Below, one piece after another: positions 1 to 42,731 of a DNA stretch of 64,000 nucleotides. The stretch comes from Bryum argenteum (Eukaryota; Streptophyta; Bryopsida; Bryales; Bryaceae), in assembly GCA_037043015.1 (NCBI GenBank), contig CM073327.1, positions 18,520,727 through 18,584,726 on the forward strand, written 5' to 3'. The notes beneath the pieces were generated by a model that was given only the letters and a program-made list of their open reading frames with translations, did not search any database and was not told the origin of the DNA. The translations under genes were made by a program, and so were the position numbers. Each line of letters opens with the position of its first letter. The first letter of the stretch is position 1.

Positions 1-1000
1 CATCTTCGACCGGTGGGGCATATGATCAGCAGCATTGTCAATGAATGTCTTGAGAGTAGCAACAGCTTGCTTCACGTGCAATCGAGGTTTCTTCTGACCA
101 ACATTCCCATGGTGCCGAGCACGTAGTCCAGCTGCAGCTTCTGCCTTCCGCCTGTAAAATGTGGAAATCGGAACTCCACTAATATGTTGCCATGCACGCG
201 CGCAAACATCAATGCCTTGATGGTAACCATCATCTTGCCGTCCGGTGCCTGATGAAAACGATTATGAACATCGATCTTGAAATGTGATTTAAATTTAAAA
301 CCCGACGCCTCGTACATCTGCTTTCGGAGAGCCATAATTTTCTCACGAGGGAAAGGTTGGCAACAGTTCTTGCTGCAGCAAATCTTGCTTGCAACCAAGT
401 TGACTGAATCTAACGTCAAGAGTTCCTCCTCCCTCTTGGTCCTCACAACCCGTTGGTTCCGTTCTCCCAAATCATACGGTCGCACCCCCTTCTTCTTTGG
501 ATGATCGCGGGCATAAACAGCGACGTTAAACTGATCAACTCGTAAATGATCAAGTAGTGACCAACCCTCATGCATAGCATGGCTGAGCTTCCAGTTCCTA
601 GTTCCATAAATGGTCTCAGCAGGTATGAACTCGAAATTCAAACACTTCACGATCTGCACAACTACTTGATCTTCACATAAGGGCTCGTCATTATTCTCAA
701 GCATTCTTTCAGCGTCCAGAGTCTGACAAATGCCTTCACCCACAACGTCGCCACCATCGTTGAGAAGTGTCACAAATTTCGTAACCCATTTACTTCTGGG
801 TAGTCCGGGGCAATCTTTTAAATGGTCCGGAAGAACAAGCTCAAGAGGACCATCCAAGTCCTACAAGACCACAAACATAGACGAATTAGTACGAATGGAT
901 AAACTCAGAACAAGGATGTATTATGCAAAATAAGTAAGTCCAGTACCTCCGAAAAAAGACGCCGCAAATCATCCTCGCCATCGGACTCACTCAATTCCAT
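1..1000 (-). CDS. Hypothetical protein, 5' part of a gene running off the left edge (one frameshift)
   Basis: ATG at 1000 opens an 18-codon exon (947-1000, ending ...RRLFSE). A GT-AG intron of 86 nt (861-946) follows, then a long exon from 860 to the window edge; the splice keeps frame (SE|DLDGPLEL). The exon holds a cysteine cluster (ICCSKNCCQPFPREKI) followed by a basic helix-like stretch (KIDVHNRFHQ). At about 250 the open frame changes. The initial frame stops at 72-74, but another frame is open from about 250 to base 1 and reads like a natural continuation (VCARAWQHISGVPIS, then HHGNVGQKKPRLHV). I therefore infer a single-base frameshift. The layout, a zinc-binding cluster before a helix-turn-helix-like 'GVPxSTFYRR' segment, recalls N-termini of DDE-type transposase-related plant proteins, but the catalytic part would lie outside the window, so this is a guess. 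Alternatives are an uncharacterised lineage-specific family or a domesticated transposase. Confidence 0.55.
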
Positions 1001-1006
1001 GATAAC

Positions 1007-2076
1007 CTGAATGCCAGCAATAAATAAACAATCATGAGAAACCACTGGTAGCTAAATCTATGTGCAGTCAGAAATGCTTACTACCATTATGAATATATGA
1101 CCATTAAGCTAGACTCGAGCTGAATGGACTTCAAGATCAGAAGTCACCACTCAGTCACGATGCAAGTGTATACTGTCGACCGTTTAGCTCGAATCGAGCT
1201 AAATGGTCATCACGCGTTAACGCCTTCGAGGTAAGCGTGATGAACAGTTTTCTGAATGAACATTTAGCTCGACTCGAGCTAAATGGTCTTCGAGATAATT
1301 GTTCACCATTCACCGCGAAGCAGTCAAACCAGGATGACCATTTAGCACGGCTCGAGCTAAATGTTCTTGACGATCTAAATACATTTTGTTTACCCCGAAG
1401 CATGTCGAAGAGGAAGACCATTTAGCTCGAGTCGAGCTAAATAGTCATCCAGATCAACCAGCGGTAGCGTGATGAACGATTATCTAAATGACTATTTAGC
1501 TCGACTCGAGCTAAATGGTCTTCAAGATAATCGCTCAACGCCACCACGACGATTAAAACCGGATGACCATTTAGCTCGAGTCGAGCTAAATGGGCATACC
1601 ACTCGATGTAGGTTAAGCCCATTTAGCTCGAGTCGAGCTAAATGGGCTTGCACTGAAGTTAAGCGTACGCCCATTTAGCTCGACTCGAGCTAAATGGGCT
1701 TGAATCGCTACGATACAATGCAAGCCCATTTAGCTCGACTCGAGCTAAATGGGCGATCGCCCTCATGTGAGATCAAGCCCATTTAGCTCGACTCGAGCTA
1801 AATGGTCTTCGAGTGAGTCCTTCATTACAGGACTTGAGAGCATATCATGCATATGTTATATGAAATCGCCTCGATATTCGTGCGACAAAAAATACTATAA
1901 ATCGTTCTTGGGAACTGTGCAGAAGTAAAACAGTATCTTTGCCTCGATTTCCGTGCACAACTAAACCGACGATATCCACATTGTTATCAGGAATGCACCA
2001 CGATGAACGCAAGATATGACCAATTAACAACAATCTTTTCTTATACATTGACATTGAGGATTTAGATCGAACTTAC
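1007..2076 (-). other. 5' UTR intron of the minus-strand gene, carrying palindrome array 1
   Basis: Read on the minus strand, a strong donor (GAGG|GTAAGTTCG) sits at 2076 and an acceptor (GGCATTCAG|GTTATC) at 1007, six bases before the ATG. The 1070-nt intron contains the eleven-unit palindrome array. The intron is inferred from splice signals and from the matching layout in the divergent gene; no transcript data are available. Bases 1803-2076 hold nothing else that I recognise. Confidence 0.55.
1101..1802. repeat. Palindrome array 1 (11 units)
   Basis: Eleven copies of a 21-bp palindrome (arm TTTAGCTCGA, centre G or C, arm TCGAGCTAAA) start at 1104, 1183, 1263, 1341, 1421, 1495, 1570, 1622, 1674, 1729 and 1782. 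The start-to-start distances are 79, 80, 78, 80, 74 and 75, then 52, 52, 55 and 53. The first and fourth units are degenerate. Flanks extend the dyad (CCAT...ATGG or GCCCAT...ATGGGC). Spacers are unlike in sequence but rich in inverted repeats: ATCACGC...GCGTGAT at 1204-1262, TAGTCAT...ATGACTA at 1442-1494 and GGGCGATCGCCC at 1751-1762. Spacers after units 2 and 3 resemble those after units 5 and 6, giving a higher-order period near 232 bp. Confidence 0.9.
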
Positions 2077-2480
2077 CCTCACGCCGTGCTTGACAGCTGC
2101 GGTATTTCAACGAAGGCCTCGGGCATCCTCAAAAGCACCACGCGCATCAACTCCAGAGCTTCTGAGAGTCTTAAACCCTAAACAAGATTTGCAAAACCGG
2201 AAGCACTAATGGTAATAGGTAGTTTAGGCTAAACGTAGTGTACAGAGACGAAGTGCAAAGATGCGAAGGTGCGGAGGTGAGGCGAAGGGCAACAGGAGCG
2301 ACGCCGCAGAGGAGCGGAAAGAGCACAGGAGCGGAGCCGGAGAGGAGCGGAAAGAGCACAGGAGCGCAGCAGGAGCGAAGGAGCGGAAAGAGCAAAGGAG
2401 CGGAAAGAGCACAGGAGCGAAGCAAGAGAGGAGCCGAAAGCGCATAGTGCGCCAATGAGGAGAGAGCTAGAGCAAGCGGG
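2077..2480 (-). other. Probable 5' UTR exon of the minus-strand gene
   Basis: On the minus strand this is pyrimidine-rich, with about five imperfect copies of a roughly 20-bp repeat built on GAGCGGAAAGAGCACAGGA (plus-strand sense, about 2305-2425). It ends at the strong splice donor at 2076. Short open frames here are compositional and look non-coding. The divergent gene also has a pyrimidine-rich leader before its first donor. Confidence 0.45.
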
Positions 2481-2490
2481 AAGAGAAATG

Positions 2491-2533
2491 GCGCCAAACA
2501 AGATCACGAACTCAAAATAGAAAGGGCGCCAAA
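2491..2533 (-). promoter_or_regulatory. Paired E2F-type sites (TTTGGCGC)
   Basis: Two perfect matches to the E2F consensus TTTSSCGC lie on the minus strand at 2491-2498 and 2526-2533, 35 bp apart, just upstream of the presumed leader exon. An AACGG core follows at about 2543. In plants such sites mark S-phase genes; their use here is inferred from position. Confidence 0.45.
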
Positions 2534-2539
2534 TACGGC

Positions 2540-5500
2540 CAGTAACGGTATAGAGTAAAAGCGACGTGGATGGGAACTTGGGGGGAAACGGGGAACTTCA
2601 CAAGGAACGGGGAACTTCGCAAGGAACGAGGACATCTTCGGAAATTTGGGAGGAACGAGGACATCTTAGGCCAGTAAAATCATTTGAAGTTAAGTCGCAC
2701 AGAAATTTGTAATACTTCTAAAAATAGAAATTACATAATTGTAATAATAAAAACCGGATTCGGGAGGACAATGGATAACCCAAACTCAAATGAACAAAAT
2801 AATCTCATATCGAGCACTAGAATGTTAAACTCTTAATGCGCCGAATGTCAAAAACGACATTTTGAATAGAAAGCATAACTTTGAATAGCCATATCTTCTT
2901 CGTCCGAGGTCCGTTTTGAATGATATCACTTAGGTTTTGCTCCAAATCAAGTCTAGTTTCTATTCTAAACTTTGCAAAAAAGTATGAAATAATGAAATGC
3001 ACTTAAGTGAAAACAACTCTTTTATTTTATTGGAACTCCAAGCATGGAGCATGTATTATGATTGCAAGCCAATTACGTGAAATTAAAAAGAGTTTTTCAT
3101 GATTCGCTTTTTCATAATCATGATCTTAAGGTGATTCTTTACAACTTTATAGTCTTTAAGCCTAGCGTTTATGCTTAATTGATTAAAATCGATAGGTGTT
3201 GTGAAGTATAATTGTAAGATTTGTATTTACTAAATTACATGTAATATTAAAAGATAAATACTTTACACGTTGAAACAGTTATAGTAAATATTATATTCAA
3301 ATTATTTAAATGTGATTCTATAAGATTAGTTTCTAGTCAATTAGGTGTGGTGTATCACGTATGATATTCAATTAAGTTGAATGTGATATTCTACAAATGG
3401 CCATTATAAACATAATATTCAAGATATTTATGTGATATAATATCATCTAAATATTTAGACAGGGAATAAGTTGAGAAATCATAAGTTTATTACGTATTTC
3501 TTAAACTGTGTTATTTCCAATAAGATATTTTAAGTATATTACTTAAAGTATATTACTTAAAGTATAATACTTAAAGTATACTATATTTAAAGTATTATAT
3601 TATTGATTTAAAATTCAGTGTTGTTAAAATTGAGTGACTATATGTTTTTTGGAAGTTTAGTATTCTATGTGTGATATTCAAACATAATAATATTCTGTTT
3701 TACTTCAATTCTTATGCTAGGATGTTTTATATATTACACTATTCTAAAGTTATTTTCAAAATTTTATAATGTATCCGCATTTACGCTTTTTTTTATAAGC
3801 TGATAAGTAACTTCTATGTTTACTTTTCAATCCTCACTCTATAAGTTCAAAAATGATCAACCTTTAAACCTAAACATTTAACTCAATAACCAAAACCTTA
3901 ATTCCTAAAATCGTTAGCCTAAATTCTATACTCTAATAGAGAACTCTCGCAACGCATTCAATCTCGTGGCGCACTTCCACTTTCCCCGGGCACATGTCTT
4001 TTCGCTATTCCGCCGTTGTTTTCTGCTGCTACTCCTCGCTCATGCTACTTTAGCTAATCCTCGCGCTCATTGAATCAATCTGATAATTGCTATTGTAAAA
4101 TGGTTGCAAATGGCACATTCATTTTTAGGAGATTTGTATATTAAGCTATGAGAATCAAATGTGTTGGTTCTGCATTAAATTTAAAATTTCGTTATTTGTT
4201 TACATGTGCCATGTTTACCCTAGCACAATATTTATGTGAAATCGTCATACCTTTTTTATTTAAATATTCTTTACTTAAGTAATAATTTTTGATTAAAGAT
4301 TAAGGAGTTGAGATTAATTTCTGTTTAATATACTAATATGTTTTGTTCAACCATATTGTACTATATGAAAATATATTTCTTATTATAATAAGGTATATTC
4401 AGTATTATTGAATATGCTATTATACACTATATTACTACATTAATTTATATTTAAATAAAAGTTATTATATCAATAGACTAATCTACTGTATTTTTAAATT
4501 TTTAATAATATAAAATGTCTATCAGTGCTAATAGTTGAATGTGAATATTAATAATGTTTTCTTCCAATAGGATATTTCCCTACTAAACGAGGATATGTAG
4601 ATTAATAATCATGGGCATTCGTCATACATAAATTAAATGCAATTTTAATTATGCGTATATACTTTATTTTATTCCGTGCTAACAGTATGCTTATTGCCTA
4701 CAAATGTACTTAATGTAGGTCAAATCATTTAACGTTTTACTAATGAAAATTAATTATTTAGAACCAAAAATATCTTTTTTGTGATCTTGTATCTTACTAT
4801 CTTAAGAAACTAAGGTTTGCCTATGCAAGAACAAATAAAAAGTTATTTTCCAACACTGAACATTATACCTTCATGATTTATAAGGAAGCTGAATTGGAAA
4901 TCTTTCATAATTAGTTACTTTTAGGAAGTTACTTTTAGAATGCAATTGGGAAATTAAACACTTTTATCTTTACTTAAGAAAGAATACTTACGTATAGGAT
5001 ATGGACTATGCATATCAGAATTTCAATCAAAATGAGACTCATTCCGTTAAAATGAGATTGACCCTATAAGAAGCTTGCTGCAGAAGACATTTAAGAATGA
5101 CGGCGCTGCTCACATCACAGTAGTGGTGCATTCTTCAGTTATTTCCTTCTCGCAGTCAGAATTGGTTGCGCTACTTTGACACAAACATATTGATCCAATA
5201 GAGGAAGCAATTGCGCAGGGGAAACAAGTTAAGCAATGAAGTTATAAAAACCATCTTACACTCTCTATTTGCCACTATATTAAATGTTTTTACTTACTTC
5301 AATCGTCATTTTCTTTCTACACATAGTTTTTCCAAGCATATAATATTTTTAACTCGATCACTACAAATATAATCTGGTATTTTATTTATTTACATTTCAC
5401 GAATTATTCTATGTTTCTTAACTTTAATTTCCTTTCCTACCAATTAAACATATTTAACTAACATTTTATAAGATAATTACTCTAGGATTTAAAAATATCG

Positions 5501-6480
5501 TTATTCACTTTATTTTGATTACTTACGTATTAATTTAAGCTTTAACAATAGAAATGAACTATTTTAATTCAATGCGTGAAAACAAAAACATATAAAATTA
5601 ACAAAAACAAATAAAATAAATATTTAATTTTAAAGTAAAAAAAAAAAAAAAAAAAAAAAAATATACTTCCATTGCTTCTTGGCAAATCCTAATATTTTGT
5701 CTTTAATTATCATATGACATGAATTATGATTTAAAGTTATAAAACCACTCTCCCTCACTTTTTGCGCATACACTAGCACTCGTCTCGTACTTCAAATTAT
5801 CTTTGGGTTATTGAATCCTCATGAAATTTATAGACATAGTTTCATTTGTCTTATGATATATTTCACACTTTCACCACATTCATATGGTCCTATTAAGCTA
5901 TTGTACGTATTCAAATCACCTTCTTTCCATCATTATCTTATTGACCTGCTTATTCAAATTCTGGAAAGTTCCACTTAAATGATGACACGTAGATACTTTA
6001 TTCCTATGATTTATTTTATGGTACTATAATTTTTATAAGGTTATTATAAGCTAGTCTCAGGACAACATTTTTTTTCCTTTGCATTTTATTTATTTTTTAC
6101 CTTATTATTCAAAGTGCCAATGTGTTAAAACTTTTGTAAGAAACTCATAGCATAGAGATGTGTCTTTCTCACAAATTTCTAAATAACACCATCTAATTTC
6201 TAGGGTCATAATTAGTTAACCTAAAATTTAAAAATATTTTTTCTCATCTTCTATATATTTTCTACATCTTATTCAAAGTTCAGGTCCATAGAGGTAATCT
6301 AAACTAAATCGGGAAAATTAGTTTCGACTTCTTAGAAATTATTTTGGTGATTTCTAAAATTTATAGAGTCGTTATTACCTACTTCACATACAAAAATTCC
6401 TTTGATTCCATTTATTTTTTTGAAATACATCTCCGCCCCAAATAATAAAACTTCTGTTTTTTAAAAAAATAAAAAATAAA
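2540..6480. other. AT-rich spacer between the divergent genes, no gene seen
   Basis: About 4 kb of AT-rich sequence without a convincing open frame. It holds a short tandem block built on ATTACTTAAAGTAT (about 3531-3595) and a run of 25 A at 5637-5661. I see no TE termini, RNA gene or coding signal. Confidence 0.6.
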
Positions 6481-6499
6481 TTTTTTTTTGGAAATTTCC

Positions 6500-6625
6500 A
6501 CCCGGGCAGCCCGGGCAGCTGGGCAGCCAGCAAATCGGCGGCGGGGCAGCCCGGGCAGCCCGGGCAGCCCGGGCAGCCCGGGCAGCCCGGGCAGCCGGGC
6601 AGCCGGGCAGCCAGCTAAACGGCGG
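6500..6625. repeat. 9-bp GC-rich tandem repeat (CCGGGCAGC)
   Basis: About ten copies of CCGGGCAGC, some degenerate, interrupted by a GGCGGCGGGG segment that occurs twice. An open frame through it gives only low-complexity GSPGSPGSP and is not believed coding. It lies just upstream of the pyrimidine-rich leader of the plus-strand gene. Confidence 0.85.
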
Positions 6626-6629
6626 CGGG

Positions 6630-7047
6630 GCAGCCCGCGCAGGCGGGAGCGCCCTGCCGACAGGGTCCCCGCCCCCCCACTTTCGACCCTCTCTCTTCGT
6701 CGCACCGCCGCAGCTCCTCCGAAACCTCTCCGGCGCTCCAAATATTCGCTCTTTTCTCCGCTCTCACTCACTCTCTCTGCTCCGTGCTACGCGCCGCTTC
6801 GCCCTCCTTCGCGCCTCTCCCGCCATCCCTGCTCTTCCGCCTCTGCCGATTTGTGCTACTCGCGCGCAATTTGCTTTTGCCTTCTCCCTTTTTTATGCTC
6901 TTGTTTTAGGTTTTGCTCCTCATCGTGCGAGCTCCTGCGGTCATACTTTCTTGCGCTTGCTCTTCCATCTTCGGCCTTGTTTGAGCTTCCAGCATTTCAA
7001 CATTCTTCTACGAAGTTATTGGGCGTCCTCGTTTCCTGCTTGATCAT
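6630..7047 (+). other. Probable 5' UTR exon of the plus-strand gene
   Basis: Pyrimidine-rich leader (many CTCTCTC and CTTCC runs) ending at a donor (GATCAT|GTAAGTTC) at 7048. The matching acceptor is at 8019-8020, two bases before the ATG at 8023. The transcription start is not determined. Confidence 0.4.
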
Positions 7048-7230
7048 GTAAGTTCTTACCTGAATTTTTAGGTTTTGCATTGAGATTGTCCTTTAGGAGC
7101 TTGTTTTGTACGTTGCGGGCACAATGTTTTCGAATCTCGCTCGAAGTGTAGTGGCTTCACGCAAATTTGTGTTCATTGCTTCAGAATTTGTGTTTTTCTG
7201 CTAGAATGCACTCATTTGAACTTTCAGCTC

Positions 7231-7307
7231 ATTTAGCTCGATGCCCATTTAGCTCGATGCCCATTTAGCTCGATGCCCATTTAGCTCGATGCCACTTTAG
7301 CCCGATT
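7231..7307 (+). repeat. 16-bp direct repeat of the half-palindrome
   Basis: ATTTAGCTCGATGCCC is repeated head to tail from 7231 for nearly five copies, the last degenerate (ACTTTAGCCCGATT). Each copy equals one arm plus its flank, without the opposite arm. It lies 44 bp before the first complete unit of array 2. Confidence 0.9.
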
Positions 7308-7350
7308 AATTCGATTCATTCATATAGTTCTCCATGCCAACCGAAGCCCA

Positions 7351-7898
7351 TTTAGCTCGAATCGAGCTAAATGGTCTCGGGCCTCGTTTCAGGCCAAGCC
7401 CATTTAGCTCGACTCGAGCTAAATGGGCCTGACCCCATACAGGGTCCGAGACCATTTAGCTCGAGTCGAGCTAAATGGGCTTCGACTACAGCCAAGTAGT
7501 GAGCCCATTTAGCTCGACTCGAGCTAAAAGGGCCTGACCCCATACAAGGTCCGAGACCATTTAGCTCGAGTCGAGCTAAATGGGCATGGACTACAGCCAA
7601 GTAGTGAGTCCATTTAGCTCGACTCGAGCTAAATGGGCCTGACCCCATACAGGGTCCGAGACCATTTAGCCCGGGTCGGGCTAAATAGGCAGGAAACCTG
7701 CTACAGGGTAGTATGTCCATTTAGCTCGAGTCGAGCTAAATGAGCTTATTGCTCTGGTACAGGTTTATAGCCCATTTTGCTCGACCCGTCCTAAATGGGA
7801 CCGACATTGTTTGCGGTCCGGGCCATTTAGCTCGAGTCGAGCTAAATGGCCTTCCTGCCATGTAGCAGGTTAACCCAGTTGAGCTCGACTGGGGCTAA
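7351..7898. repeat. Palindrome array 2 (11 units, 52.5-bp pitch)
   Basis: Units start at 7351, 7403, 7455, 7508, 7560, 7613, 7665, 7720, 7775, 7826 and 7878. Spacings are 52, 52, 53, 52, 53, 52, 55, 55, 51 and 52, close to five helical turns. The unit at 7665 has mirrored T-to-C and A-to-G changes that keep the arms paired. Spacers carry their own centred hairpins with a 5-bp stem and 6-nt loop: GGCCT/AGGCC, GACCC/GGGTC, ACTAC/GTAGT and CCTGC/GCAGG. The second and third types alternate, giving a dimeric period near 105 bp. The units at 7775 and 7878 are degenerate. Confidence 0.92.
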
Positions 7899-8022
7899 AT
7901 AATCTTGGCAATAAATCTAAACATGTTTGATGGTTTATCTTGGATCGATCGCCTAGATGATGAGGAAGTGCCACTGCCCCTGTGAATCTTACAGTTTGTT
8001 TCTCATTGTTTGAATGACAGTG

Positions 8023-11000
8023 ATGCCGAGAACCAAACAAACTGCCAGAATCGTTCAGATGGCTACAAATGCCCCTGCCGAGTCTGAAATCAACATGGAA
8101 GTGGAGCAGCAAGAGTCGGCTCCTGAGGTATTAGTCTACTTCAGATCTATGTTCCACCCTATTGTGCCCAGTTAGCTCGAATCGAGCTAATTCGCCCTCT
8201 ATTATTTTGTTATTCACAGGTCACGTATAATATGCAAGCCCTGGAGGGATTCCTTGCACCAGTTGAAATCGAATCACCAGACGATCCGCTTTCTGCTATT
8301 TTTCTGGACGCGCAATGGGGAAAATTGTGGACCCCCAAGAAACATTCCATCAAGTCTTGGTCGATTCGTCCGTTGAACAAGACGCACTTCTTGTTTTATC
8401 AACAGTCAGGATCTCACGGGGCGTTTTTGCCCCTGTGTCTTGATGCCTTCATCGAACTTGTTACCTATGAGGATGAATTTCTCATGATCAAGTTCGAAGC
8501 GGTGGAGGTCGAAGGATTCGTCTTCACCATTGTGTTTCCCCCTAATGAAGTCCGTTTCTCCCACGACTTCATCCGGAGCTTCATGGTCGGGAAGGTCGAT
8601 GCCAATCAACTTCATCACATCGACACGAAATTGCAGCCCAATCAGTCTTCTCCGAAAATCTTCGCCAGGTCCTACATTCCTTACACTGCGCAGATCTGGA
8701 AGGCTCTCTCTGATTTCGAGAATGCAAAGAAGAAAGGCAAGGCTCCAATGAAACGGCCCGGGAATCTCATCAAGGCCGCTCCATCCGGGAATGCTCCGTC
8801 GGGTCTAGGCACTCCAGAGGGAAGTCTAGGCGTTCAGGGTATGAAGCGTCCTAACCCGAATTCTTCCAGCTCTGGATCGAAGAGGAGCAAATCCTCCGGC
8901 AGCACTCTGACGTTCATGAACCCTACCATGAACGTGGTCATCTCGAGAAGGACATCAAGTACGAGGAGGCGACAAAGTCTCCGGAGGACTACTGGGGCAC
9001 ATTGTGAGAGTGTTATGTATTCGGTCGTGACAATCCCCTTGACGTGTCGATCGACCTCCTTGACCCTTCCGAACCAAGGTTCATCGTGCGATCTCTCGAA
9101 CCAAGCCCGGCATCGCGCATTACAAGAACATCTTGATGAATTCTCTTGATGTTTCTTCCAGACAAACCATCATCATAATGCCGAAGATCACAACTGCGCC
9201 TGAGGTTTGGGATTGGGACGTTCTGATCCAATCTTGTCGGTTCCGAATTATCGACGGGCAAAGACCACGTTGAGGTCAAGAAACATTGATTCGGGACAAG
9301 AAGATCGACGAATCGAAGGTCCTCGCCCTTCAGACATGGAAAGCCCACGTTGTGTGGCATTCCAACATCAACAAGATTTTGGACGTGTCGGCCATGGCGA
9401 ACAAGACGAACAATGCTGGGACGTTCATCCCTTCCTGGGCAACGAACATCATGGGCGCTAGAAAGGTCTGGGAAGACTATGGCCGCCCTGAGAAGCTCAA
9501 GAAGCCACATCGACGTGAAACACCGGTTGAATTAGATAACCGGAAGCGTTATGAGGTATGACATTACCTCATCCTTGCATTTCCTGGTTGGCTTTGGTTG
9601 CATTTTCTGTCGACGTGTTTGGGATGTCGTTTTAGCTCGACTCGAGCTAAAACAGCATAGGTTGTTTCTTAATAGTTTGGCTTTCCTGCAGGCATTCGCT
9701 GCTGCTATGGTGAAGAGGTTCATCAAAGATCAACAACAATAACGTGAAGGACAAGATCGTCAGACCGTCCGACCTTCGCAACGAGCTCCTCATCATCACA
9801 TCTCCCGACGACGTCTACGAGTTGTGGAAGAGGTTCATCACTGGCTACAGTCTCGGAGAGCTGATCGACCCCGACACCGAGCTCCCATTTAATCGGGCGA
9901 AAGACTGGGAAACCGCCTCAAAGAAGTTCTCCTTGAACAGGGAGTTCTTCAAGGGGATGGGGCAGTTGGACGCGGAGAACCTCGAGGTGTTGGCACAGCA
10001 CTTGCTGAACGAGACTCCGGATCGAACGTTGCCCTACCCCAAGGTGGCCGTCAGGAAGCCTGCGAAGAAATACTTCCAGTGCATGAGTGCAAAGCAGTGG
10101 GTGGAGAATCGGAAGAGGAAGAACACTGTCGCGAGGGAACTGCACAACCTCAAGCCCTCGCTCGGTTTGTTCGACTCCGAGTGGCACTTCGACGTCGACA
10201 ACTGGAGGAAGTTTAAGGTGGAATACAATCTGACTCGTCAGACTATGTCCATGCTTCTCTCCGTCCCGGGCGACTCGTTCTTCACCATCTACCGCCAGAA
10301 GAAAGCGAAGAATAGGAGTGCCGCAGAGATATCGGAATATGCAGCTGAGTTCTTCAAGAAGTTCCTGGATGTCAAAGGGACGTTTCAACCTCCTGAACCG
10401 ACTGTTTACACGCGGCTCTTTCACTCTTCCGAGTTTAAATTCGGGAGTTGGGACAAGGACTACGTCTGGAACCAATCAAGTAAGTGTGATTTAGGCTTGA
10501 TTGATTTGCGAGCTGTCCCGGGGAGCGGAAGTAGAGTGGACGACACAGAGAGTCCATACTTTCAGGAATTCCTTGATGTGTGGGCAGACACCGTGACCGA
10601 TCCTCACATCAAGAATCCCGAGGTTTGGATGTTCATCACCTCCAACGCCGACCGTGAATCGCCAGGCAATGGTTTACGTCGACAAGAAGTTGAAGGACGG
10701 GTACTCTCGCAAGGCTGCCAACTACATGCCGGCCAGCAACGAGCGTTTTAACGGCATCGCAGAGGGAAAAGCTTCAGAGAAGCACTTGCTCCCCCTCCTC
10801 TTTCTTGTCAAGAAGAGCAGCCATGCTCAGAGTGTGTTGGATTCGATTCCCTCTGTATTCTACGCTCCAGAGTTGCCCCTGTACTCGAAGCCCGGCGCGT
10901 ACAGAGAACACCATCTTAGTCTCAGTGATACCGAGCTCCGATTGGAGTTCTACTGTCGGGTGCTGAAGATGTTCTCATCTCCGGGAGGGAAGTTTCTATC

Positions 11001-13449
11001 GATAATGGGTGGCACAAAGCCAATGTTGGCTGGAATTGTAAGTACATTGCTCCTTTCTTTTAATTTGAATTCCACAAGCTCGTTTAGCTCGAGTCGAGCT
11101 AAACGATCCCATGCTCGTTTAGCTCGACTCGAGCTAAACGATCTTATGCTCGTTTAGCTCAGGTCGAGCCGAACACTCTCATGGCTGTTTAGCTCGAGTC
11201 GAGCTAAACACTCTCATGCCTGTTTAGCTCGACTCGAGCTAAACACTCTCATGCCTGTTTAGCTCGCTTCGAGCTAGACACTCCCATGCTTATATCTCTT
11301 CATCATGTAATTTGTTCATGGCCTTTTAGCTCGAGTCGAGCTATTTCTTCTTACTCTTCTTATATGTTTCTCTCGCCTTCTTACAGATGTGCCAGGCTGA
11401 GACATATGTTGTTATCAGCGAGACCGAGAAGGAGGCTTATACGAATGCTGCGTCGGATTACCAACATCTCGACTACAACGATATCAACGTCGCAGCATAC
11501 GTCAATCCAGAAGCGAATCGCGGTCCCAAGCCTTCTGCTGAAGGGACAAAGAAGGGGAAGAAGAGGATGTCTAAGAAGAAGAGCACCCAGCCTGCAAGCG
11601 ACGACTCTTCCGCTTCTGAGCACGAGGATGATGATGAAGGTGATCCTTCTTCTCCGGCTGGGATGAATTCCCCCATGGATTCAGCTGGTCCTCTGGTTTC
11701 TCCTCCCGCCATTGACTGGGCTGCGGTGGCAATTCCGTCTAGTGCTGCTCGTGCTCCCCCTCGTGGTCGTGGTACTGCTCGTGCTCCCCCTCAGGGTCGT
11801 GGAAGCGTTCGAGCTCGGTCTTCTGCGTCACATGGTCGCGGTACAGCACGCGCCCCTCCCCGCGAATCTACCAAGCGTTCATCTTCTGAGGCGCGAGCTG
11901 GAGAGGCTTCTCGGTCCAGAAGCGCTTCTGTGCCTCAAGCACGGAGGGCGCTCGATGCCAACTTTGGGGCTGCGATGTCGCTTGGGACATTGAGAGCCCC
12001 CCCCGCGCTTGCTGCGTCGTGGTCCTCCATCGGAGGAGGATTTAGCTCGAGTCGAGCTAAACGAGCGATCTCTGGGGGTCGTCGATATTGGGGCGGCCGG
12101 AACTCCGGTTCGCACACACGTTCCACCCCGGGTTTCGGAGGAGGTTCGTTCAAAGAACTCGAACGATGGGATCTACCGGGATTTCTTTGGCGAAGACGAC
12201 GAAGAACCTGGGCAAGAGCGTGTGCCACGGGATGGATCATCATCCGACAGCTCACTCGTCGACCACCACGAGTATGAGGGTGCGGGCGATGGCGGCGGGG
12301 ATGACGATGACCAAGGTGATGATGCTGATCTCGCGGCCATGACCTTAGACGACGAGGTGGCTCCCGATCCATCCCAAAGAGGAGACTACATTGGCCCCTT
12401 CTCCCTTGCGCCCGCGGAGCCCTCCCAGGAGGCAGATTGAGAAGGGGAAGTATGACAAATGGTTAGTGAAAGGTGTTTGGAAGTACGAGGACGAGCCGGA
12501 GGATACCAAAGTAGTCCGGTTCTATGATTTCTCGGAAGAGCCTAGTTCTCCAAAGCCTTTGAGGGCTGAGGATGATCCTCTTCTTCCTGTCATGCCTCTG
12601 CTCACGGAGGAAGGAGAGCCTTCACAACCACCAGTGAAAGTGGAAGTTGTCGCCCCTTTGCTCACGAAGGATCAGAAGCGAGCTCAGAAGCGGCAAGAGA
12701 AGGAGGCTCAGAAGGCTCGCAAGGCAAAGGAAGAAGCAGAGAGAGAAGCGGCAAGAGAGAGGCAAAGGTTAGAAGACATCGCTCGAGTGGAGAAATTGGA
12801 GTCCACTTTCCTGAGCTCTCAGTCCGAGACCCGCATGGCACTAGGCAAGATGGAGCAGATGTTTCAGTCATTCGGGAATATCTTATCCCAACTGCCTAGT
12901 TTTCCTGTCCCCATTGCTTCCATCAACCCCGATCAACCTCGCCTCAGCATCTGTGACACGAGTCCACCAGCCATCGTCGCGCCTCCACAACCTCCCATCG
13001 TCGCGCCTGCACAGCCAGCCATCGTCGCGCCTCCACAACCTCCCATCGTCGCGCCTGCACAACCAGCCATCGTCGCGCCTCCACAGCCTCCTATTGTTGC
13101 TGAACCGGAGATCGCACCCCGCCCCATACCCCTCGAGATTTCGGAGAAGCCGGCGAAAGAGGCTGATGTCCCGATTGAGGCAGCGCCGACGCCGACCCAC
13201 TCTCCCGTGGCTGCTACCGAAGTTGTTCCTGCCCTTGACTCTCCCGTGCCTGCGACCGATGTTCTTCCTTCCCTTGACTCTCCCGGGGCTGCTACTGAGA
13301 CGGCTATAACTTCACCGGCAAATCCAGAGGTTAGTTACTATCCTTTCCTTGCTCTGCTATTCCCTCATCTCTTGAAGTTTTCGCATTTAGTAATCTTAAA
13401 GCCGGCGCTCCTTGTTTGACAGGAGTCCGGCACCGATGGCGGCGAGTAG
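8023..13449 (+). CDS. Large nuclear-type protein: H3-tail-like N-terminus, possible ParB-like and degenerate methyltransferase-like domains (several frameshifts)
   Basis: Model: exons 8021-8127, 8220-9555, 9692-11037, 11387-13329 and 13423-13449. All introns are GT-AG and each keeps phase (e.g. APE|VTYNM, RYE|AFAAAM, AGI|MCQAE, NPE|ESGTDGGE-stop). Exon 1 encodes MPRTKQTARIVQ, matching histone H3 over RTKQTAR. Exon 2 holds a conserved-looking block, then 'RFRIIDGQRPR' followed by a long helical segment, reminiscent of a ParB-like fold. Exon 3 contains 'CDLGLIDLRAVPG' and 'SSPGGKFLSIMGGTKPMLAG', which resemble motifs IV and I of amino-methyltransferases in the order IV then I, without a DPPY catalytic motif. 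Exon 4 has RGRGTARAPP-type basic repeats, acidic runs, a coiled coil (about 12660-12890) and five PPIVAPAQ-type repeats (about 12965-13100). Frame changes occur near 8905, 9003, 9100, 9270, 9740, 10665 and 12041. Splice signals are intact. The function is unproven; it could be a recent pseudogene or a gene damaged by assembly indels. Confidence 0.5.
8171..8191. repeat. Single degenerate palindrome unit in intron 2
   Basis: GTTAGCTCGA, centre A, TCGAGCTAAT, inside the 92-nt intron 8128-8219. The terminal bases have changed on both sides and no longer pair perfectly. Confidence 0.8.
9631..9651. repeat. Single palindrome unit in intron 3
   Basis: Perfect unit inside the 136-nt intron 9556-9691. 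The dyad extends two more bases on each side (GT...AC), flanks different from those of arrays 1 and 2 but still complementary. Confidence 0.9.
11083..11345. repeat. Palindrome array 3 (7 units, 35-bp pitch)
   Basis: Units start at 11083, 11118, 11153, 11188, 11223 and 11258, each exactly 35 bp apart, with a seventh at 11325. All lie in the 349-nt intron 11038-11386. Spacers are 14 nt with a central CATG (CGATCCCATGCTCG changing to CACTCTCATGCCTG). Flanks are CG...CG in the first units and TG...CA in later ones, complementary in both cases. The third and sixth units carry substitutions. Confidence 0.92.
12041..12061. repeat. Palindrome unit inside an exon
   Basis: A perfect unit lies within otherwise coding sequence. 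Upstream the plausible frame is ...RAPPALAASWSS; downstream the plausible frame (...NDGIYRDFFGEDDEEPG) is a different one. The frame switch falls at or close to the unit, as expected if the palindrome was inserted into the exon. An unrecognised intron here is the alternative. Confidence 0.75.
13330..13422 (+). other. Last intron of the plus-strand gene
   Basis: Donor CCAGAG|GTTAGT and acceptor TTTGACAG|GAGTCC, 93 nt. It joins NPE to the terminal exon ESGTDGGE-stop. No palindrome unit is present here. Confidence 0.5.
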
Positions 13450-13538
13450 GTCCACGAGTAGTCTCCAAATTATTGGATGCTGTTTCGCTTTTTGTACATA
13501 GTACAATTATTATCGTTGTACTTATTGAAACATCATTC

Positions 13539-13544
13539 AATAAA
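13539..13544 (+). terminator. Poly(A) signal AATAAA
   Basis: AATAAA lies 90 bases after the stop codon at 13447-13449 in an AT-rich tail, supporting the 3' end of the gene here. Confidence 0.5.
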
Positions 13545-13570
13545 ATTGAGACTCTTTTCTTTCAAATCAG

Positions 13571-15474
13571 TTTTTATCTTCAGTGAGTCTGCGTCCTTCT
13601 CATCACAAGGCCCTAAACTTCGTCCTTTTCTATCAGCCCCCTTATACGAATACCTTGTTCCGTCCGATTGCTTCAAAATCCCCACCAACCACCTCATGTT
13701 ACCTCTGGGGTGTGGCGGTTCAGCATCTGTCAATCTTTGCCCGATTCTTTGCATACTTGAGATTTTGCAAGGTACACACCCTCTTGTTTTAATACCATTT
13801 GCCATTGTTACGTGTTCCCTCAATGCGGGCGGGTCCGTCCAAACATCCCAAACAGCGATCTCGCCCGAGCTACCCATTACGCATATCTCCCGCAGATCTT
13901 TTTACGGTCCAAGCCCAAGTGGTTGAATGTGATGTTGGAGCCGGACGGGGTTCTATGTTCGATGGCCTCTGTGTCTACCCCAAAGCCTCGCCGAGTGCTG
14001 TCTTTTCCGGATCCCAATAATCCTCCGGTGTTTTCCTCCACCGTCCCAACCTTAGTTGCCGGGAGGGTCGCTCTCATCGTCGTCCCGGGTTGACAGGTTC
14101 CTTCGCTTACTTAATTTGTTACGCCACGTCCACGCCTGGAGTACCGTAGATCCTAAGGTTGTACATGGACTCTGCTCCTTTTTGTTCTCGGTCGACGCTT
14201 CCCTGGACTTGTCTTGGCTTCCAACCAATGCGATAATCTGTTGTTGAAGAATTACGCATTCGCCAAGTACCCCGCACGACAAATCCCATCCTCTTAAAAT
14301 ATCCTCGACGGTTTGTATCCTAGGAAGGGTGCCAATTTCAATGACGACAACTTGCTCATTGTCGATTCGAAGCCCGAGACTTGCATTGCGGTTCCCACAA
14401 AGAACACACTTTTCACTGTTCTGTGGAACCATTCCTGTCCCGAGGATCCAAAGTCCGACTTCTTGAAGAGGATAGGCGAGATATGTCTTTCCGTGCATTT
14501 GAACGGTCCTGAAAATTTCGCCGAGACTATGCGCCATCGTAGACCCACGCAAAATGAACTGTCGAAGGACTCAGAGTTGTATATGCTCTTGAGCCGTAAT
14601 CTTCCATATATGTGGAATCAGGACCGAATCAGTGGGAAGAATTTGCCTTAAATTCTTTTATCAGTGGTATTGTTCTGGTTTTTACCCTAGGAACGCTTAT
14701 GTTTAACGATTGCTTAGATCCAGATATAATGTAGATCGATTGGTGAATCCACCCTCGACATACATGATTATATGCGTTCTTATTTTGTGTACCTTTTTCA
14801 TTGCACTTAGCGTCTTGGACTCACTTGCTAATATGGTTGTGTTTATGAACCAGGTTGCTGCTGTTGGACGTCAGCTCTCTCCACATGCATCATGTGCTTT
14901 GCAAGCAAATCTTGTAATTGGTCCTTCGACGGTTTTGAGGATTCCATTACAAGTGACGACTCGAGAACTTTCTCGAGCGAATGCGGGACGGCTTATCTAC
15001 TTTGCTCCGGACGATCGTCGGTCAGAGACTACACGAAGGAGGACATGGATAATGACGATGATGGTGTAGTCAACAGTCCCCCTATTGAGATTCAACCAGT
15101 TATTGCAACCGGCAATGATCGAATCGGTGTTATGACCTCGGTTGCAGCGGCACCCCAAGGTGATCTTTGTATCCATAACAACCCCGTCGTCGACGCCCGT
15201 GCCTATTTAGCTCGTCTCGAGCTAAATAGTTCCTTGCCAAATCTTTGGGCTCATTGCTCCTTATCTCTTGGGGCAAACACTCGCGTTCATCCAACACGAT
15301 TTTCGATCGAGTCTCACCGTCTTTTTACGGAGACGTGCACCGCGTCGTAGAAGTGGTGGGCTTATGGAGATGGACGAACCTGCCTTCTCTAAATACACTC
15401 GTAGTGACGACCCTCTATTCACTAAGAATGATACTTCTGGTGATACCTCTTCTCCGCCACGTCGTAATTGGTAG
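13571..15474 (+). pseudogene. Decayed gene downstream, possible methyltransferase-like relative
   Basis: Coding-like blocks in shifting frames: NFVLFYQPPYTNTL (about 13610), 'KWLNVMLEPDGVLCSMASVS' ending RVALIVVPG-stop (about 13912-14093), a block from 14313 to 14651 (DDNLLIVDSKPETCIAVP ... SELYMLLSRNLPYM), acidic KEDMDNDDDG (about 15040), and a C-terminus MEMDEPAFSKY...PPRRNW-stop at 15474. QPPY resembles a variant xPPY catalytic motif of adenine or cytosine amino-methyltransferases, and the LEPDGVLCSMASV segment resembles the strand after it; both are weak inferences. Introns are likely (acceptor TTATCTTCAG near 13580, donor CAAG|GTACAC near 13770). Whether this is a separate gene or an old tandem relative of its upstream neighbour is undecided. 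Confidence 0.35.
15206..15226. repeat. Single palindrome unit, rightmost copy
   Basis: TTTAGCTCG, then TC, then TCGAGCTAAA, with a variant centre. Flanks CTA...TAG extend the dyad by three pairs. No further copies are seen to the right. Confidence 0.85.
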
Positions 15475-15515
15475 ATTAATTTAGTGCCTACCTGTTGGAG
15501 GTCTACAATTACACC

Positions 15516-15548
15516 AATAAATTGTATTTGTGCTTTCATATGAATAAA
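15516..15548 (+). terminator. Two AATAAA poly(A) signals
   Basis: AATAAA at 15516-15521 and 15543-15548, shortly after the stop at 15474 of the decayed gene. Confidence 0.4.
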
Positions 15549-15758
15549 ATTTACTCTTGGGGTAGCATATTTCTTAGCTTGCGTTTTGAAATCTTTACTA
15601 GTATTGTCTTTTATATTGAGAAAATTCATCGTTATCAGTAAAAACCTGGTGATTTGGTAACTAATCAGGTCAGAATCGATCTAAATGGAAGTCTGCCTAA
15701 TTACCAAAATCAGTATATATTCCCATTATAACGAATTACGTGTTTTCGACACTTTCTA

Positions 15759-22341: not shown

Positions 22342-23635
22342 TGTCGCAACCCTTGCTAGCTCACCTTGGCTTACACCAACTTTTTCCCAACTCTAGCAAG
22401 TGTCACGAGCGCTAACTCTGCACATCCCCCACATGCACAAAGTTAGCTCTCCATACCAACCACCAAGCTCACCGCTTGGTTATCAATCCCTCCTACTCAT
22501 GCAACCGGGACTCAACCCCTTCGTAGGTAGCCAATGGTTAGGTGCGGACTTCCACTTATGTCCAAGGCCCAACTTGGTGGCACTCCCATACCACGCGGCC
22601 TAACCGCACTTGGTGGTGTCTCCTCACCACCGCCCATGACCACCATGGTGACCCCAAGGCCACCAAGTAATCACAACGCCGGCGGTGAGACACCACCCCA
22701 CATCGGTAGCACTCATGGTCCTCCATTTGCCTATATGAGTCCCCGTGGTGAAGCCCCAACACTAGCTCCCCCCACCGGGACTCACCTTGTCCTTATGAGC
22801 CACCGTGGTGAAGCCCCAACACTAGCTCCACCCACCGTGCCTCATTTTGCACTTTGAGTCCCCATGGTGGAGCCCCAACACTAGCTCCACCCATTGGGAC
22901 TCACCTTGGCTTGGGAGTCCCCATGGTGAGGCCCCAACACTAGCCACACCACTCGGGACTCCCACCTTGGTCACCACCAAGGCACCATGGGAGTGGGGAG
23001 GGAGACCAGCCCTCCCCATAGTATACTCTGTGGGATTCGGCAGCCCCGGTCCTAGGTGAAGGGCTGGACCCTCACACCTCTTAGTTTTGGAAGACCACCC
23101 AATCTCCCAATGCCTTAGCCGCTGGAAGGCCCCGGAGACTTCCCGAACCTTCCAGGGCTCGTATCTACCTCGTCCCGCATCCAAACGCGACGAGCGACCA
23201 CTCTATCGACATCTACTCGTCAAGTAGATGCCGATAGACACCTTACTTGCCTCATTCCGACAAGTATTGAGGGAGTTATGCCCCTCTGAAGATTCGGGAG
23301 TCCCGGGCCAGCTTCCCAGTCCAGCACTGTCCCTGGACAGCACTCCCTTTAGTCCCACAATCTTCCAACTCCCATAACTTTTAGCTCACACCTCCAAATG
23401 AGGTGCTCCTTAGCATTCCGGAATCGTGGCAACATGAGCTTCCATAATCTCATGTCCATTCCCTCGTGGCTCCTAGTCTCCGTGGGTGAGAGGCGTCTCC
23501 AACGCCCGGGGTCCTCTCCCACACTAGGCCCACTTAGGTTCCCTTCACCTTGGCACCCCAAGGCCCGGGCGTCACTCCGGTGTCCCCCTTGGGCCCTTGG
23601 TGTTGCGGGCACTCCTCAAGGAGAGGTGCGCGACA
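22342..23635 (-). mobile_element. Solo LTR of chromovirus Chromo-1, reverse orientation
   Basis: It is 1294 bp with ends TGTCGC...GCGACA, nearly identical in reverse complement to the LTRs at 34672-35965, 41436-42731 and 51909-53205. Flanking five-mers differ (ACGGG left, CTTGG right), and it abuts Chromo-2 sequence on the right. This points to rearrangement or unequal recombination rather than a clean solo LTR. Confidence 0.85.
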
Positions 23636-34671: not shown

Positions 34672-35965
34672 TGTCGCGCACCTCTCCTTGAGGAGTGCCC
34701 GCAACACCAAGGGCCCAAGGGGGACACCGGAGTGACGCCCGGGCCTTGGGGTGCCAAGGTGAAGGGAACCTAAGTGGGCCTAGTGTGGGAGAGGACCCCG
34801 GGCGTTGGAGACGCCTCTCACCCACGGAGACTAGGAGCCACGACGGAATGGACATGAGATTATGGAAGCTCATGTTGCCACGATTCCGGGATGCTAAGGA
34901 GCACCTCAGTTGGAGGTGTGAGCTAAAAGTTATGGGAGTTGGAAGATTGTGGGACTAAAGTGAGTGCTGTCCAGGGACAGTGCTGGACTGGGAAGCTGGC
35001 CCGGGACTCCCGAATCTTCAGAGGGGTATAACTCCCTCAATACTTGTCGGAATGAGGCAAGTAAGGTGTCTATCGGCATCTGCTTGACGAGTAGATGTCG
35101 ATAGAGTGGTCGCTCGTCGCGTTCGGATGCGGGACGAGGTAGATACGAGCCCTGGAAGGTTCGGGAAGTCTCCCGGGGCCTTCCAGCGGCTAAGGCATTG
35201 GGAGATTGGGTGGTCTTCCAAAACTAAGAGGTGTGAGGGTCCAGCCCTTCACCTAGGACCAGGGGGCTGCCGAATCCCACAGAGTATACTATAGGGAGGG
35301 CTGGTCTCCCTCCCCACTCCCATGGTGCCTTGGTGGTGACCAAGGTGGGAGTCCCGAGTGGTGTGGCTAGTGTTGGGGCCTCACCATGGGGACTCCCAAG
35401 CCAAGGTGAGTCCCAATGGGTGGAGCTAGTGTTGGGGCTCCACCATGGGGACTCAAAGTGCAAAATGAGGCACGGTGGGTGGAGCTAGTGTTGGGGCTTC
35501 ACCACGGTGGCTCATAAGACAAGGTGAGTCCCGGTGGGGAGCTAGTGTTGGGGCTTCACCACGGGGACTCATATAGGCAAAATGAGGACCATGAGTGCTA
35601 CCGATGTGGGGTGGTGTCTCACCGCCGGCGTTGTGATTACTTGGTGGCCTTGGGGTCACCATGGTGGTCATGGGCGGTGGTGAGGAGACACCACCAAGTG
35701 CGGTTAGGCCGCGTGGTATGGGAGTGCCACCAAGTTGGGCCTTGGACATAAGTGGAAGTCCGCACCTAACCATTGGCTACCTACGAAGGGGTTGAGTCCC
35801 GGTTGCATGAGTAGGAGGAATTGATAACCAAGCGGTGAGCTTGGTGGTTGGTATGGAGAGCTAACTTTGTGCATGTGGGGGATGTGCAGAGTTAGCGCTC
35901 GTGACACTTGCTAGAGTTGGGAAAAAGTTGGTGTAAGCTAAGGTGAGCTAGCAAGGGTTGCGACA
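34672..35965 (+). repeat. Chromo-1 5' LTR with internal tandem repeat
   Basis: 1294 bp, TGTCGCGCACC to GGGTTGCGACA. It contains four tandem copies of a 57-59 bp unit with core GGAGCTAGTGTTGGGG (35361-35575), of the kind often acting as LTR enhancers. The 5' 70 bases include a GC-rich inverted segment (CTCCTTGAGGAG). Confidence 0.9.
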
Positions 35966-41435: not shown

Positions 41436-42731
41436 TGTCGCGCACCTCTCCTTGAGGAGTGCCCGCAACACCAAGGGCCCAAGGGGGACACCGGAGTGAC
41501 GCCCGGGCCTTGGGGTGCCAAGGTGAAGGGAACCTAAGTGGGCCTAGTGTGGGAGAGGACCCCGGGCGTTGGAGACGCCTCTCACCCACGGAGACTAGGA
41601 GCCACGACGGAATGGACATGAGATTATGGAAGCTCATGTTGCCACGATTCCGGGATGCTAAGGAGCACCTCAGTTGGAGGTGTGAGCTAAAAGTTATGGG
41701 AGTTGGAAGATTGTGGGACTAAAGTGAGTGCTGTCCAGGGACAGTGCTGGACTGGGAAGCTGGCCCGGGACTCCCGAATCTTCAGAGGGGTATAACTCCC
41801 TCAATACTTGTCGGAATGAGGCAAGTAAGGTGTCTATCGGCATCTGCTTGACGAGTAGATGTCGATAGAGTGGTCGCTCGTCGCGTTCGGATGCGGGACG
41901 AGGTAGATACGAGCCCTGGAAGGTTCGGGAAGTCTCCCGGGGCCTTCCAGCGGCTAAGGCATTGGGAGATTGGGTGGTCTTCCAAAACTAAGAGGTGTGA
42001 GGGTCCAGCCCTTCACCTAGGACCAGGGGGCTGCCGAATCCCACAGAGTATACTATAGGGAGGGCTGGTCTCCCTCCCCCTCTCCCATGGTGCCTTGGTG
42101 GTGACCAAGGTGGGAGTCCCGAGTGGTGTGGCTAGTGTTGGGGCCTCACCATGGGGACTCCCAAGCCAAGGTGAGTCCCAATGGGTGGAGCTAGTGTTGG
42201 GGCTCCACCATGGGGACTCAAAGTGCAAAATGAGGCACGGTGGGTGGAGCTAGTGTTGGGGCTTCACCACGGTGGCTCATAAGGACAAGGTGAGTCCCGG
42301 TGGGGAGCTAGTGTTGGGGCTTCACCACGGGGACTCATATAGGCAAAATGAGGACCATGAGTGCTACCGATGTGGGGTGGTGTCTCACCGCCGGCGTTGT
42401 GATTACTTGGTGGCCTTGGGGTCACCATGGTGGTCATGGGCGGTGGTGAGGAGACACCACCAAGTGCGGTTAGGCCGCGTGGTATGGGAGTGCCACCAAG
42501 TTGGGCCTTGGACATAAGTGGAAGTCCGCACCTAACCATTGGCTACCTACGAAGGGGTTGAGTCCCGGTTGCATGAGTAGGAGGAATTGATAACCAAGCG
42601 GTGAGCTTGGTGGTTGGTATGGAGAGCTAACTTTGTGCATGTGGGGGATGTGCAGAGTTAGCGCTCGTGACACTTGCTAGAGTTGGGAAAAAGTTGGTGT
42701 AAGCTAAGGTGAGCTAGCAAGGGTTGCGACA
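41436..42731 (+). repeat. Chromo-1 copy 1 3' LTR
   Basis: 1296 bp, nearly identical to the 5' LTR (small differences such as CACTCCCA versus CTCTCCCA near 42085). The near-identity indicates a recent insertion. Confidence 0.9.

Follow-up and report, generated by a model that had tools for sequence, protein, structure and literature searches.

A 21-bp palindrome arrayed in the noncoding DNA of large terminal-inverted-repeat transposons of the moss Bryum argenteum, and its possible role as a protein-binding site

Array 2, a chain of 21-bp palindromes at positions 7351-7899 of the window (the whole 64,000-nucleotide stretch analysed here), is one of several such arrays within a DNA transposon bounded by terminal inverted repeats (TIRs). 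By analogy with VANC and TnpA, we consider it slightly more probable than its opposite that a dimeric, element-encoded protein binds the palindromes and thereby acts on the noncoding DNA of the element itself; the most likely binding protein is the product of the element's long gene.

The arrays lie within a large DNA transposon

The borders of the transposon were found by comparing the window with other half-site clusters, which revealed long homologous stretches with sharp stops. The whole element measures 18,149 bp and runs from window position -2404 (L009:7596) to 15744. Its TIRs match each other at 28/28 bp, and joining its flanks yields an open frame (FQRLLMDIFRDFLRHFLEVFIDDFAVFS) that by eye resembles gypsy reverse transcriptase (RT). 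Its limits, including the target-site duplication (TSD), are located in the window as follows:

1-15744, plus strand: part of the family-A transposon lying in the window, delimited by the 28-bp inverted repeat at both ends, the 4-bp TSD TTCG and flank joining
15717-15744, minus strand: right TIR (AACACGTAATTCGTTATAATGGGAATAT on the minus strand)
15745-15748, plus strand: right copy of the TSD TTCG

A second family-A copy, at C1:507-528 kb, is 21,503 bp long with both TIRs and the TSD CTTG, and a 22-mer of the family-A TIR occurs 294 + 276 times in the genome, with 0 occurrences of the reversed control. Family B is represented by a copy of 18,572 bp at C1:201627-220198 with both ends, the TSD CTAT and the related terminus AACCCCATATTCGTTATATTGGG; within the sequence examined, no end of this family was found at C1:374 and one at C1:808. 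Family C (from C1:1050 kb) shows the terminus AACCTCGTATTCGTTATATTGGG at one end, and its second end was not found within the 20 kb examined. The full-length size, taken from the three copies with both ends found, is therefore 18-22 kb. Identity in the shared exon is 36% between families A and C (298 residues), 30-34% between A and B (stretches of 74 and 89 residues) and 50% between B and C (205 residues).

Short derivatives of the element were obtained by a DNA search with a 150-bp element (C1:39738-39887), from which 40 of 415 candidates were scored and 20 of these 40, together with the original, were examined. All carry the same TIR as the large element, flanked by TSDs of 15 different sequences: 14 copies have 14 different ones (CTAG, AAAA, TTGA, CTTG and others), while TCAA is common to 7/21, which we take as a single insertion multiplied inside a larger repeat. 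A perfect TSD of 4 bp in 21/21 short derivatives, and of the same fixed length in the window, C1:507 and C1:201 copies, together with inverted repeats at both ends, agrees with what is expected of the ends of a TIR DNA transposon.

Each of the 21 short derivatives also contains one internal palindrome with 2-3 mismatches, in which the left half TTTAGCTCGA is intact in 18/21 and the right half reads TCCACCTAAA in 18/21. The retention of one site in such short elements would suit an alternative in which the transposase binds the palindromes to cut and paste the element, so that they would be cis-determinants of movement comparable to the subterminal motifs of CACTA elements. The same holds for the half-sites (at most 1 mismatch) that two family-A copies have 48-156 bp from the left end, and one 60 bp from the right end. 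However, the ends are kilobases away from most sites, which lie in upstream regions and predicted introns, and the family-B copy tested has no half-site (at most 1 mismatch) within 600 bp of either end. Moreover, since the short derivatives retain only a degenerate site, the full palindrome cannot be strictly required for movement, and we regard a role as transposase sites as unlikely.

Palindromes of the window element

Inside the element, the palindromes are distributed over three arrays, a half-site tandem and several single copies:

1104-1802, unstranded: array 1, 11 units spaced at about 80 bp at first and at 52-55 bp further on, upstream of the transposase-like gene
7048-8020, plus strand: predicted 5' intron containing the half-site array and array 2, with splice-like signals CAT/GTAAGT ... 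GACAG/TGATG
7230-7306, plus strand: half-site tandem, a 16-bp unit (CATTTAGCTCGATGCC) repeated 4.8 times that contains the left half-site but not the right
7351-7899, unstranded: array 2, 11 units with a 105-bp higher-order repeat and spacer dyads
8128-8219, plus strand: predicted intron of 92 bp enclosing one palindrome (8171-8191, 2 mismatches), based on alignment and also present in the copy at C1:507
9631-9651, unstranded: single exact palindrome in a predicted intron flanked by the frame 9274-9561 and the exon at about 9691-11037
11083-11345, unstranded: array 3, with a pitch of 35 bp and the last unit farther away, in the predicted intron that follows this last exon
12041-12061, unstranded: single exact palindrome within a long open frame, in either an exon or a short intron
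15206-15226, unstranded: single palindrome near the right end, 1 mismatch

Array 2, which is preceded by the head-to-tail copies of the half-site tandem, consists of 11 copies of the form TTTAGCTCGA-N-TCGAGCTAAA placed 51-55 bp apart, 8/11 of them exact and 3/11 with 3-4 mismatches. The units start at 7351, 7403, 7455, 7508, 7560, 7613, 7665, 7720, 7775, 7826 and 7879, in agreement with where a preliminary description of this DNA had placed the palindromes. The alternation of 52 and 53 bp that it reported is seen in the first seven units and loosens afterwards (start-to-start spacings of 52, 52, 53, 52, 53, 52, 55, 55, 51 and 53). The four spacer dyads that it named, each with a 5-bp stem and a 6-nt loop, were found in array 2 as written, as was a fifth, GGACCG...CGGTCC, and its wider outline of a constant palindrome with variable, dyad-bearing spacers, in an apparent intron and recurring elsewhere in the genome, is likewise supported. 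An exact 5/6/5 hairpin (stem start at positions 6-11) is present in 6/10 spacers, compared with about 0.0075 expected per random spacer. Because two spacers alternate in the 105-bp higher-order repeat, these six hairpins comprise only four sequence types and are therefore not independent.

Elsewhere in the window, a 59-bp repeat forms four arrays whose units are similar, at 22734-22961, 35349-35573, 42114-42339 and 52587-52813, the first on the opposite strand.

Distribution of the palindrome in the genome and beyond

The 258.8-Mb genome contains 5,878 exact copies of the palindrome TTTAGCTCGANTCGAGCTAAA, against 0 of the reversed control, and among the 100 copies that head the C1 listing, the 85 reaching to position 1,059,244 lie in regions linked to families A-C. 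The 21-bp core is common to the three families, and their arrays differ in flanks (CCATTT..., CAGTTT... and others), in spacers and in pitch, which takes values of 16, 32, 33, 35, 46, 52 and about 80 bp in related arrays of the palindrome or half-site. The 52.5-bp phasing put forward in the preliminary description is thus a property of particular arrays and not a general trait. The alternating dyads of array 2 could in principle point to DNA cruciforms or to nucleosome phasing through dyads every 26 bp, but a pitch that ranges from 16 to about 80 bp among arrays of the same palindrome or half-site makes this explanation very improbable.

In five element stretches, where protein homology covers 0.27, 0.27, 0.36, 0.29 and 0.47 of the sequence, 153/166 palindromes (at most 4 mismatches) lie outside protein homology. 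The other 13/166 overlap it; in the window copy these are the palindromes at 9631, 11083 and 11118, where the frames of some homologues run past the exon. The palindrome is spread over stretches without protein homology (upstream regions and predicted introns) and, both between the element families and in homologues from other collections, is kept while its surroundings change, although conservation within one genome is inflated by shared ancestry and tandem duplication. Five background loci were chosen arbitrarily: three contain no palindrome, in L027 a short element whose terminus resembles that of family B contains a palindrome with 1 mismatch, and L024 has a 4-mismatch match and no recognised ends. 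A palindrome variant in which both sides of one stem pair are changed (TTTAACTCGATTCGAGTTAAA) was observed at C1:320071-320091.

Beyond this genome, the exact palindrome was found in 3 stretches among 84,980 prokaryote genomes and in 0 of 2.9 million viral contigs. One exact copy was observed in each of two Rhizobium genomes (L056, L057). At the peptide level, two open frames run through the palindrome, giving FSS[STNI]RA[KN] and LAR[VLFI]EL[NK]; 20/73 homologous proteins contain an exact reading and 29/73 one at most 1 residue off, with 0/73 for the reversed control. All of these readings fall within 70 residues of the C-terminus, in a set where some homologues may come from the same species and one record is labelled uncultured Leptolyngbya. 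A 4.3-kb metagenome contig filed as uncultured Synechococcales (L055) has an open DUF7869 frame of 962 aa with palindromes on its upstream side at 3819 (1 mismatch), 4194 (exact) and 4274 (1 mismatch) and weaker ones downstream (3-5 mismatches). Over 2.2 kb this contig shares 68% identity with a family-B copy; we infer that it is probably plant DNA in a metagenome, and thus a mis-binned eukaryotic contig. A protein database search with the translated array (5 candidates) gave nothing at E <= 0.01. Among the matches listed in literature searches, the titles found with the half-site 10-mer appear unrelated, and none, judged by title and the start of the abstract, deals with palindromes of moss transposable elements.

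This distribution bears on whether the arrays are passive tandem repeats, that is, a palindrome-prone satellite spreading by slippage, template switching and gene conversion without function. The variable copy number and pitch, the higher-order repeats, and a flank symmetry that drops with distance from the core, from 0.87 at base 1 to 0.26 at base 8, are all compatible with such an origin. Against it, the same 21 bp persists across families whose proteins are 30-36% identical, homologues from other sources read the palindrome near their C-terminus, and single copies are present in a short predicted intron and in the short derivatives. Passive spreading without function appears distinctly unlikely to us.

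Double-stranded site or hairpin

The pattern of change in the core favours a double-stranded recognition site over a hairpin. Freeing the two positions next to the centre raised the number of genomic copies from 5,878 to 6,193 (+315), and freeing one stem pair raised it to 6,188 (+310); the loop positions are thus as constrained as a stem pair, which speaks against a hairpin, since a hairpin loop should vary more. Among 184 local copies, 134 pairs carry a mutation on a single side and 5 on both sides, the latter complementary in only 2 cases, and the constrained 'loop' and one-sided changes together displace the hairpin from its proposed place as the selected object of the palindrome. In the same copies, the centre is G or C in 165/184 and the best-kept half-site bases are G5 and C6 (5 and 3 mismatches), figures that, like those on the loop and on one-sidedness, are inflated by the relatedness of the copies and serve to rank explanations rather than to prove one. 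The commonest changes are of CpG type (C8 to T and G9 to A; 42/144 core mismatches), pointing to past methylation, as expected of silenced DNA.

The spacer dyads were assessed separately. After trimming the outer 8 nt, the nine distinct spacers of array 2 have a central pairing of 0.69 compared with 0.46 ± 0.05 for shuffled spacers, a value reached by 0/500 shuffles, and the predicted RNA energy of the array is -349.2, compared with -314.3 ± 5.7, below all 150 spacer-shuffled versions. The real spacers of array 2 therefore exceed the shuffles on both counts, as the preliminary description had anticipated. Two arrays of 52-53 bp in the C1:507 copy behaved similarly (0 and 1 of 500 shuffles reached the value). 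No clear excess of inner dyads over shuffles was seen for window array 1 (four spacers of 52-55 bp; 80/500), the 80-bp arrays (241/500 and 330/500) or family C (61/500), and in family B, where only three spacers were long enough, 56/500 shuffles reached the value. With untrimmed spacers, pairing was above shuffles in every group except family C (at most 2/500), because the flanks of the core are symmetrical. The spacer dyads are thus real in array 2 and one relative and not general: the C1:507 copy keeps both pitch and dyads, whereas other families keep the palindrome without the pitch and family C shows no clear inner dyads. One of the refuting conditions set in the preliminary description thus applies in part.

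These results also weigh on an explanation by intronic RNA hairpins, according to which the transcribed arrays fold and have roles in splicing, RNA stability or small-RNA production. The low folding energy of array 2 and a varying pair in the commonest spacer stem, C-G in 2 and T-A in 7 of 12 spacers, are in line with such folding. The same pair, however, is a mismatch or wobble in 3/12 spacers, the central loop positions of the core are constrained like its stem pair, core changes are almost all one-sided, and the inner dyads do not rise clearly above shuffles in family C, the 80-bp arrays and window array 1; we therefore judge RNA hairpins to be an improbable explanation. The spacer dyads of family A seem best explained as remnants of the duplication of a longer palindromic unit, perhaps accentuated by template switching, as tandem duplication of such a unit would produce dyads at core and spacer automatically, without selection.

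Genes of the element

The gene models of the element rest on open frames and splice-like signals. Two genes were recognised in this way, a transposase-like gene on the minus strand to the left of array 1, whose homology extends to window position of about -1933, and, to the right of array 2, plus-strand frames that we read as one multi-exon long gene:

1-800, minus strand: 5' part of the transposase-like gene, 52% identical over 570 aa to the open frame in L055
8023-8127, plus strand: predicted first coding exon of the long gene (MPRTKQTARIVQMATNAPAESEINMEVEQQESAPE), with an H3-tail-like N-terminus
9691-11037, plus strand: conserved long-gene exon, approximate limits, ending at GGAATT/GTAAGT, with 13 homologues (P0001-P0013) and no Pfam family

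The transposase-like gene contains a DUF7869 domain (L009:8061-9749, minus strand; Pfam E 4.6e-44), with the motifs HDKMDH, Q(L/M)DNA and GHTH(E/D)DIDALF, which by eye resemble a DDE core. Pfam identified DUF7869 and no Mutator domain in three pieces of this gene and in the L055 open frame, and a literature search found no papers on DUF7869.

The first coding exon of the long gene begins with MPRTKQTARIVQ, and its predicted translation start would give the N-terminus MPRTKQTAR. The tail of histone H3 begins with ARTKQTAR; in PRTKQTAR, residues 2-8 are identical to it and residue 1 is proline instead of alanine. Among the 70 genome copies within 3 mismatches of the window 30-mer, 52 encode all nine residues of MPRTKQTAR and 18 do not, the C1:507 copy (MPRTKQSAR) being one of these 18. 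Synonymous variants among the 52 copies are ACG (6), CAG (4), AAG (3), GCT (2) and GCG (2), and replacement variants occur one to three times each. Of the copies encoding MPRTKQTAR, 31/52 were observed on C1, which makes up 17% of the genome. According to the available text of PMC5896174, SNAG-domain proteins occupy LSD1 through an H3-like N-terminus. By analogy, we hypothesize that the long-gene protein may act on LSD1 as SNAG-domain proteins do. Literature searches on histone mimicry in transposons gave, among the matches listed, none on such elements.

The remainder of the long gene gave few leads. Its central exons have no match above the curated cut-off in Pfam, NCBIfam or PHROGs. No DNA-binding domain was found above the curated cut-off in Pfam or NCBIfam for the element proteins, and PHROGs returned weak matches only. 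Weak and scattered matches of the long gene were to Spectrin_2 (0.0034, in 3/47 members), a PHROG HNH endonuclease (0.016) and DUF6551 (0.063). When its C-terminal part was compared by profile with solved structures, arginine methyltransferases matched around motif I at E 0.16-0.22, and mitofusin matched the A3 part at 0.24, leads at most; in a second profile comparison of the C-terminal part, arginine methyltransferase and agarase both scored E 1.4. The AlphaFold model of the exon-4 product P0001 is poor (mean pLDDT 55.6). By its motif, a C-terminal stretch such as LFSSPGDRFLSIMAGMKPMLAG (window 9691-11037; L022:6146-7576, minus strand) recalls methyltransferase motif I.

A further motif, [FY]xIINGQHS, was observed in 41/73 retrieved proteins (L022:7743-8726, minus strand, and homologues P0014-P0073), and in the family-A copy at C1:507 it reads FQIIDGQHHVEA; by eye, it recalls the DGQHR/ParB-like motif, with no supporting profile. 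Farther exons of the long gene in families B and C encode a NIF/FCP1-like domain identified by Pfam, and its catalytic aspartates were observed to be altered in both families (L013:8130-8939; L022:3952-4311, minus strand). The family-A copy at C1:507 has a 33% match, and DLNG stands at the position where the phosphatase motif has DxDG. In the window, a frame similar to the domain was observed at 13761-14093, below Pfam detection.

Discussion

The element resembles several known systems in part. VANDALs are a Mutator-like group with a long TSD of 9-10 bp. As far as the available text of PMC5735166 and PMC10398659 goes, VANDAL elements and VANC in Arabidopsis combine a dense short motif, arranged in tandem repeats over noncoding parts including introns, with a loss of methylation where it is bound; these repeats expand and contract quickly, and the VANDAL21 motif YAGTATTAY forms arrays in one orientation and differs from the VANDAL6 motif. 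The present element shares the short motif in tandem repeats in noncoding regions, but its motif is a 21-bp palindrome common to all three families seen, and its TIRs are clear where those of VANDALs are degenerate. Its transposase-like gene is of the DUF7869 type, without a Mutator domain, and its TSD is 4 bp, which excludes membership in the VANDALs.

For the CACTA elements En/Spm and Tgmt*, the available text of PMC2613891 describes large elements with repeated, palindrome-capable motifs and a long gene for a presumed motif-binding protein, and that of PMC10398659 states that activation by TnpA accompanies demethylation. Size, repeated motifs able to form palindromes and a long gene for a presumed binding protein are all shared with the present element, but the motifs are subterminal in CACTA elements and mostly internal here, and the termini AACACG... 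with a 4-bp TSD, instead of CACTA termini with a 3-bp TSD, set it apart from that group. In both VANDAL and CACTA elements the motif diverges between families, whereas here the motif is fixed and the families diverge.

Sola2 elements, in the available text of PMC3627910, are multi-kilobase elements with a 4-bp, AT-rich TSD (AWWT). The present element shares the size range and the TSD length, but its TSDs are of varied sequence (TTCG, CTTG, CTAT, CTAG, CCAT and others) instead of AT-rich; a literature search on Sola2 in plants was without result among the matches listed. Double-hairpin elements of fungal mitochondria and CRISPR arrays offer repeated dyads and a repeat-spacer look. The present array differs from them in lying on a large nuclear-type contig, and a free-standing satellite or CRISPR-like array was rejected as a description, the array being inside a TIR-bounded element with spacers that are repeated and not acquired.

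We slightly favour the reading of the palindromes as sites of an element-encoded protein and propose the following mechanism. A dimeric, sequence-specific protein of the element would bind the 21-bp palindrome as a double-stranded site, and the arrays, by raising the local density of sites, would allow it to coat the element's promoters and introns. The bound protein might then counteract host silencing or switch on the element's genes, as VANC does on VANDAL and TnpA on Spm. Several observations weigh against this reading: no element protein matches a known DNA-binding domain above the curated cut-offs of Pfam and NCBIfam, the model of the exon-4 product is poor, the motif is constant between families in contrast to VANDAL and CACTA, the short derivatives retain a degenerate site, and the palindrome at 12041 falls in a long open frame. 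The arrays themselves would grow and shrink through tandem duplication, which would account for the many pitches and the 105-bp higher-order repeat.

A broader proposal, which we put forward as possible although doubtful, is that these elements represent a new superfamily of giant plant DNA transposons with their own chromatin-control system. In it, the fixed palindrome, which all observed families share with relatives elsewhere, would mark promoters and introns and be read by a long protein joining an H3-tail mimic (PRTKQTAR), a GQH-motif domain (ParB/DGQHR by eye), a domain with a methyltransferase-like motif and an FCP1/NIF-like domain with altered catalytic residues. With a code shared between families, the protein of one family could protect or activate all families.

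To our knowledge, few transposons have been described that counter silencing through a DNA-binding protein of their own. The presumed target described here is unusually long, palindromic, shared across families and present in thousands of exact copies, so that one oligonucleotide could fish out the binding protein, and the exact 21-mer provides a sharp marker to find and classify such elements in other genomes. Even if inert, the arrays would still be a ready system for studying the growth of palindromic tandem arrays. Finally, the H3-like N-terminus encoded beside the array offers a concrete, testable idea of how such a protein may interfere with host chromatin enzymes.
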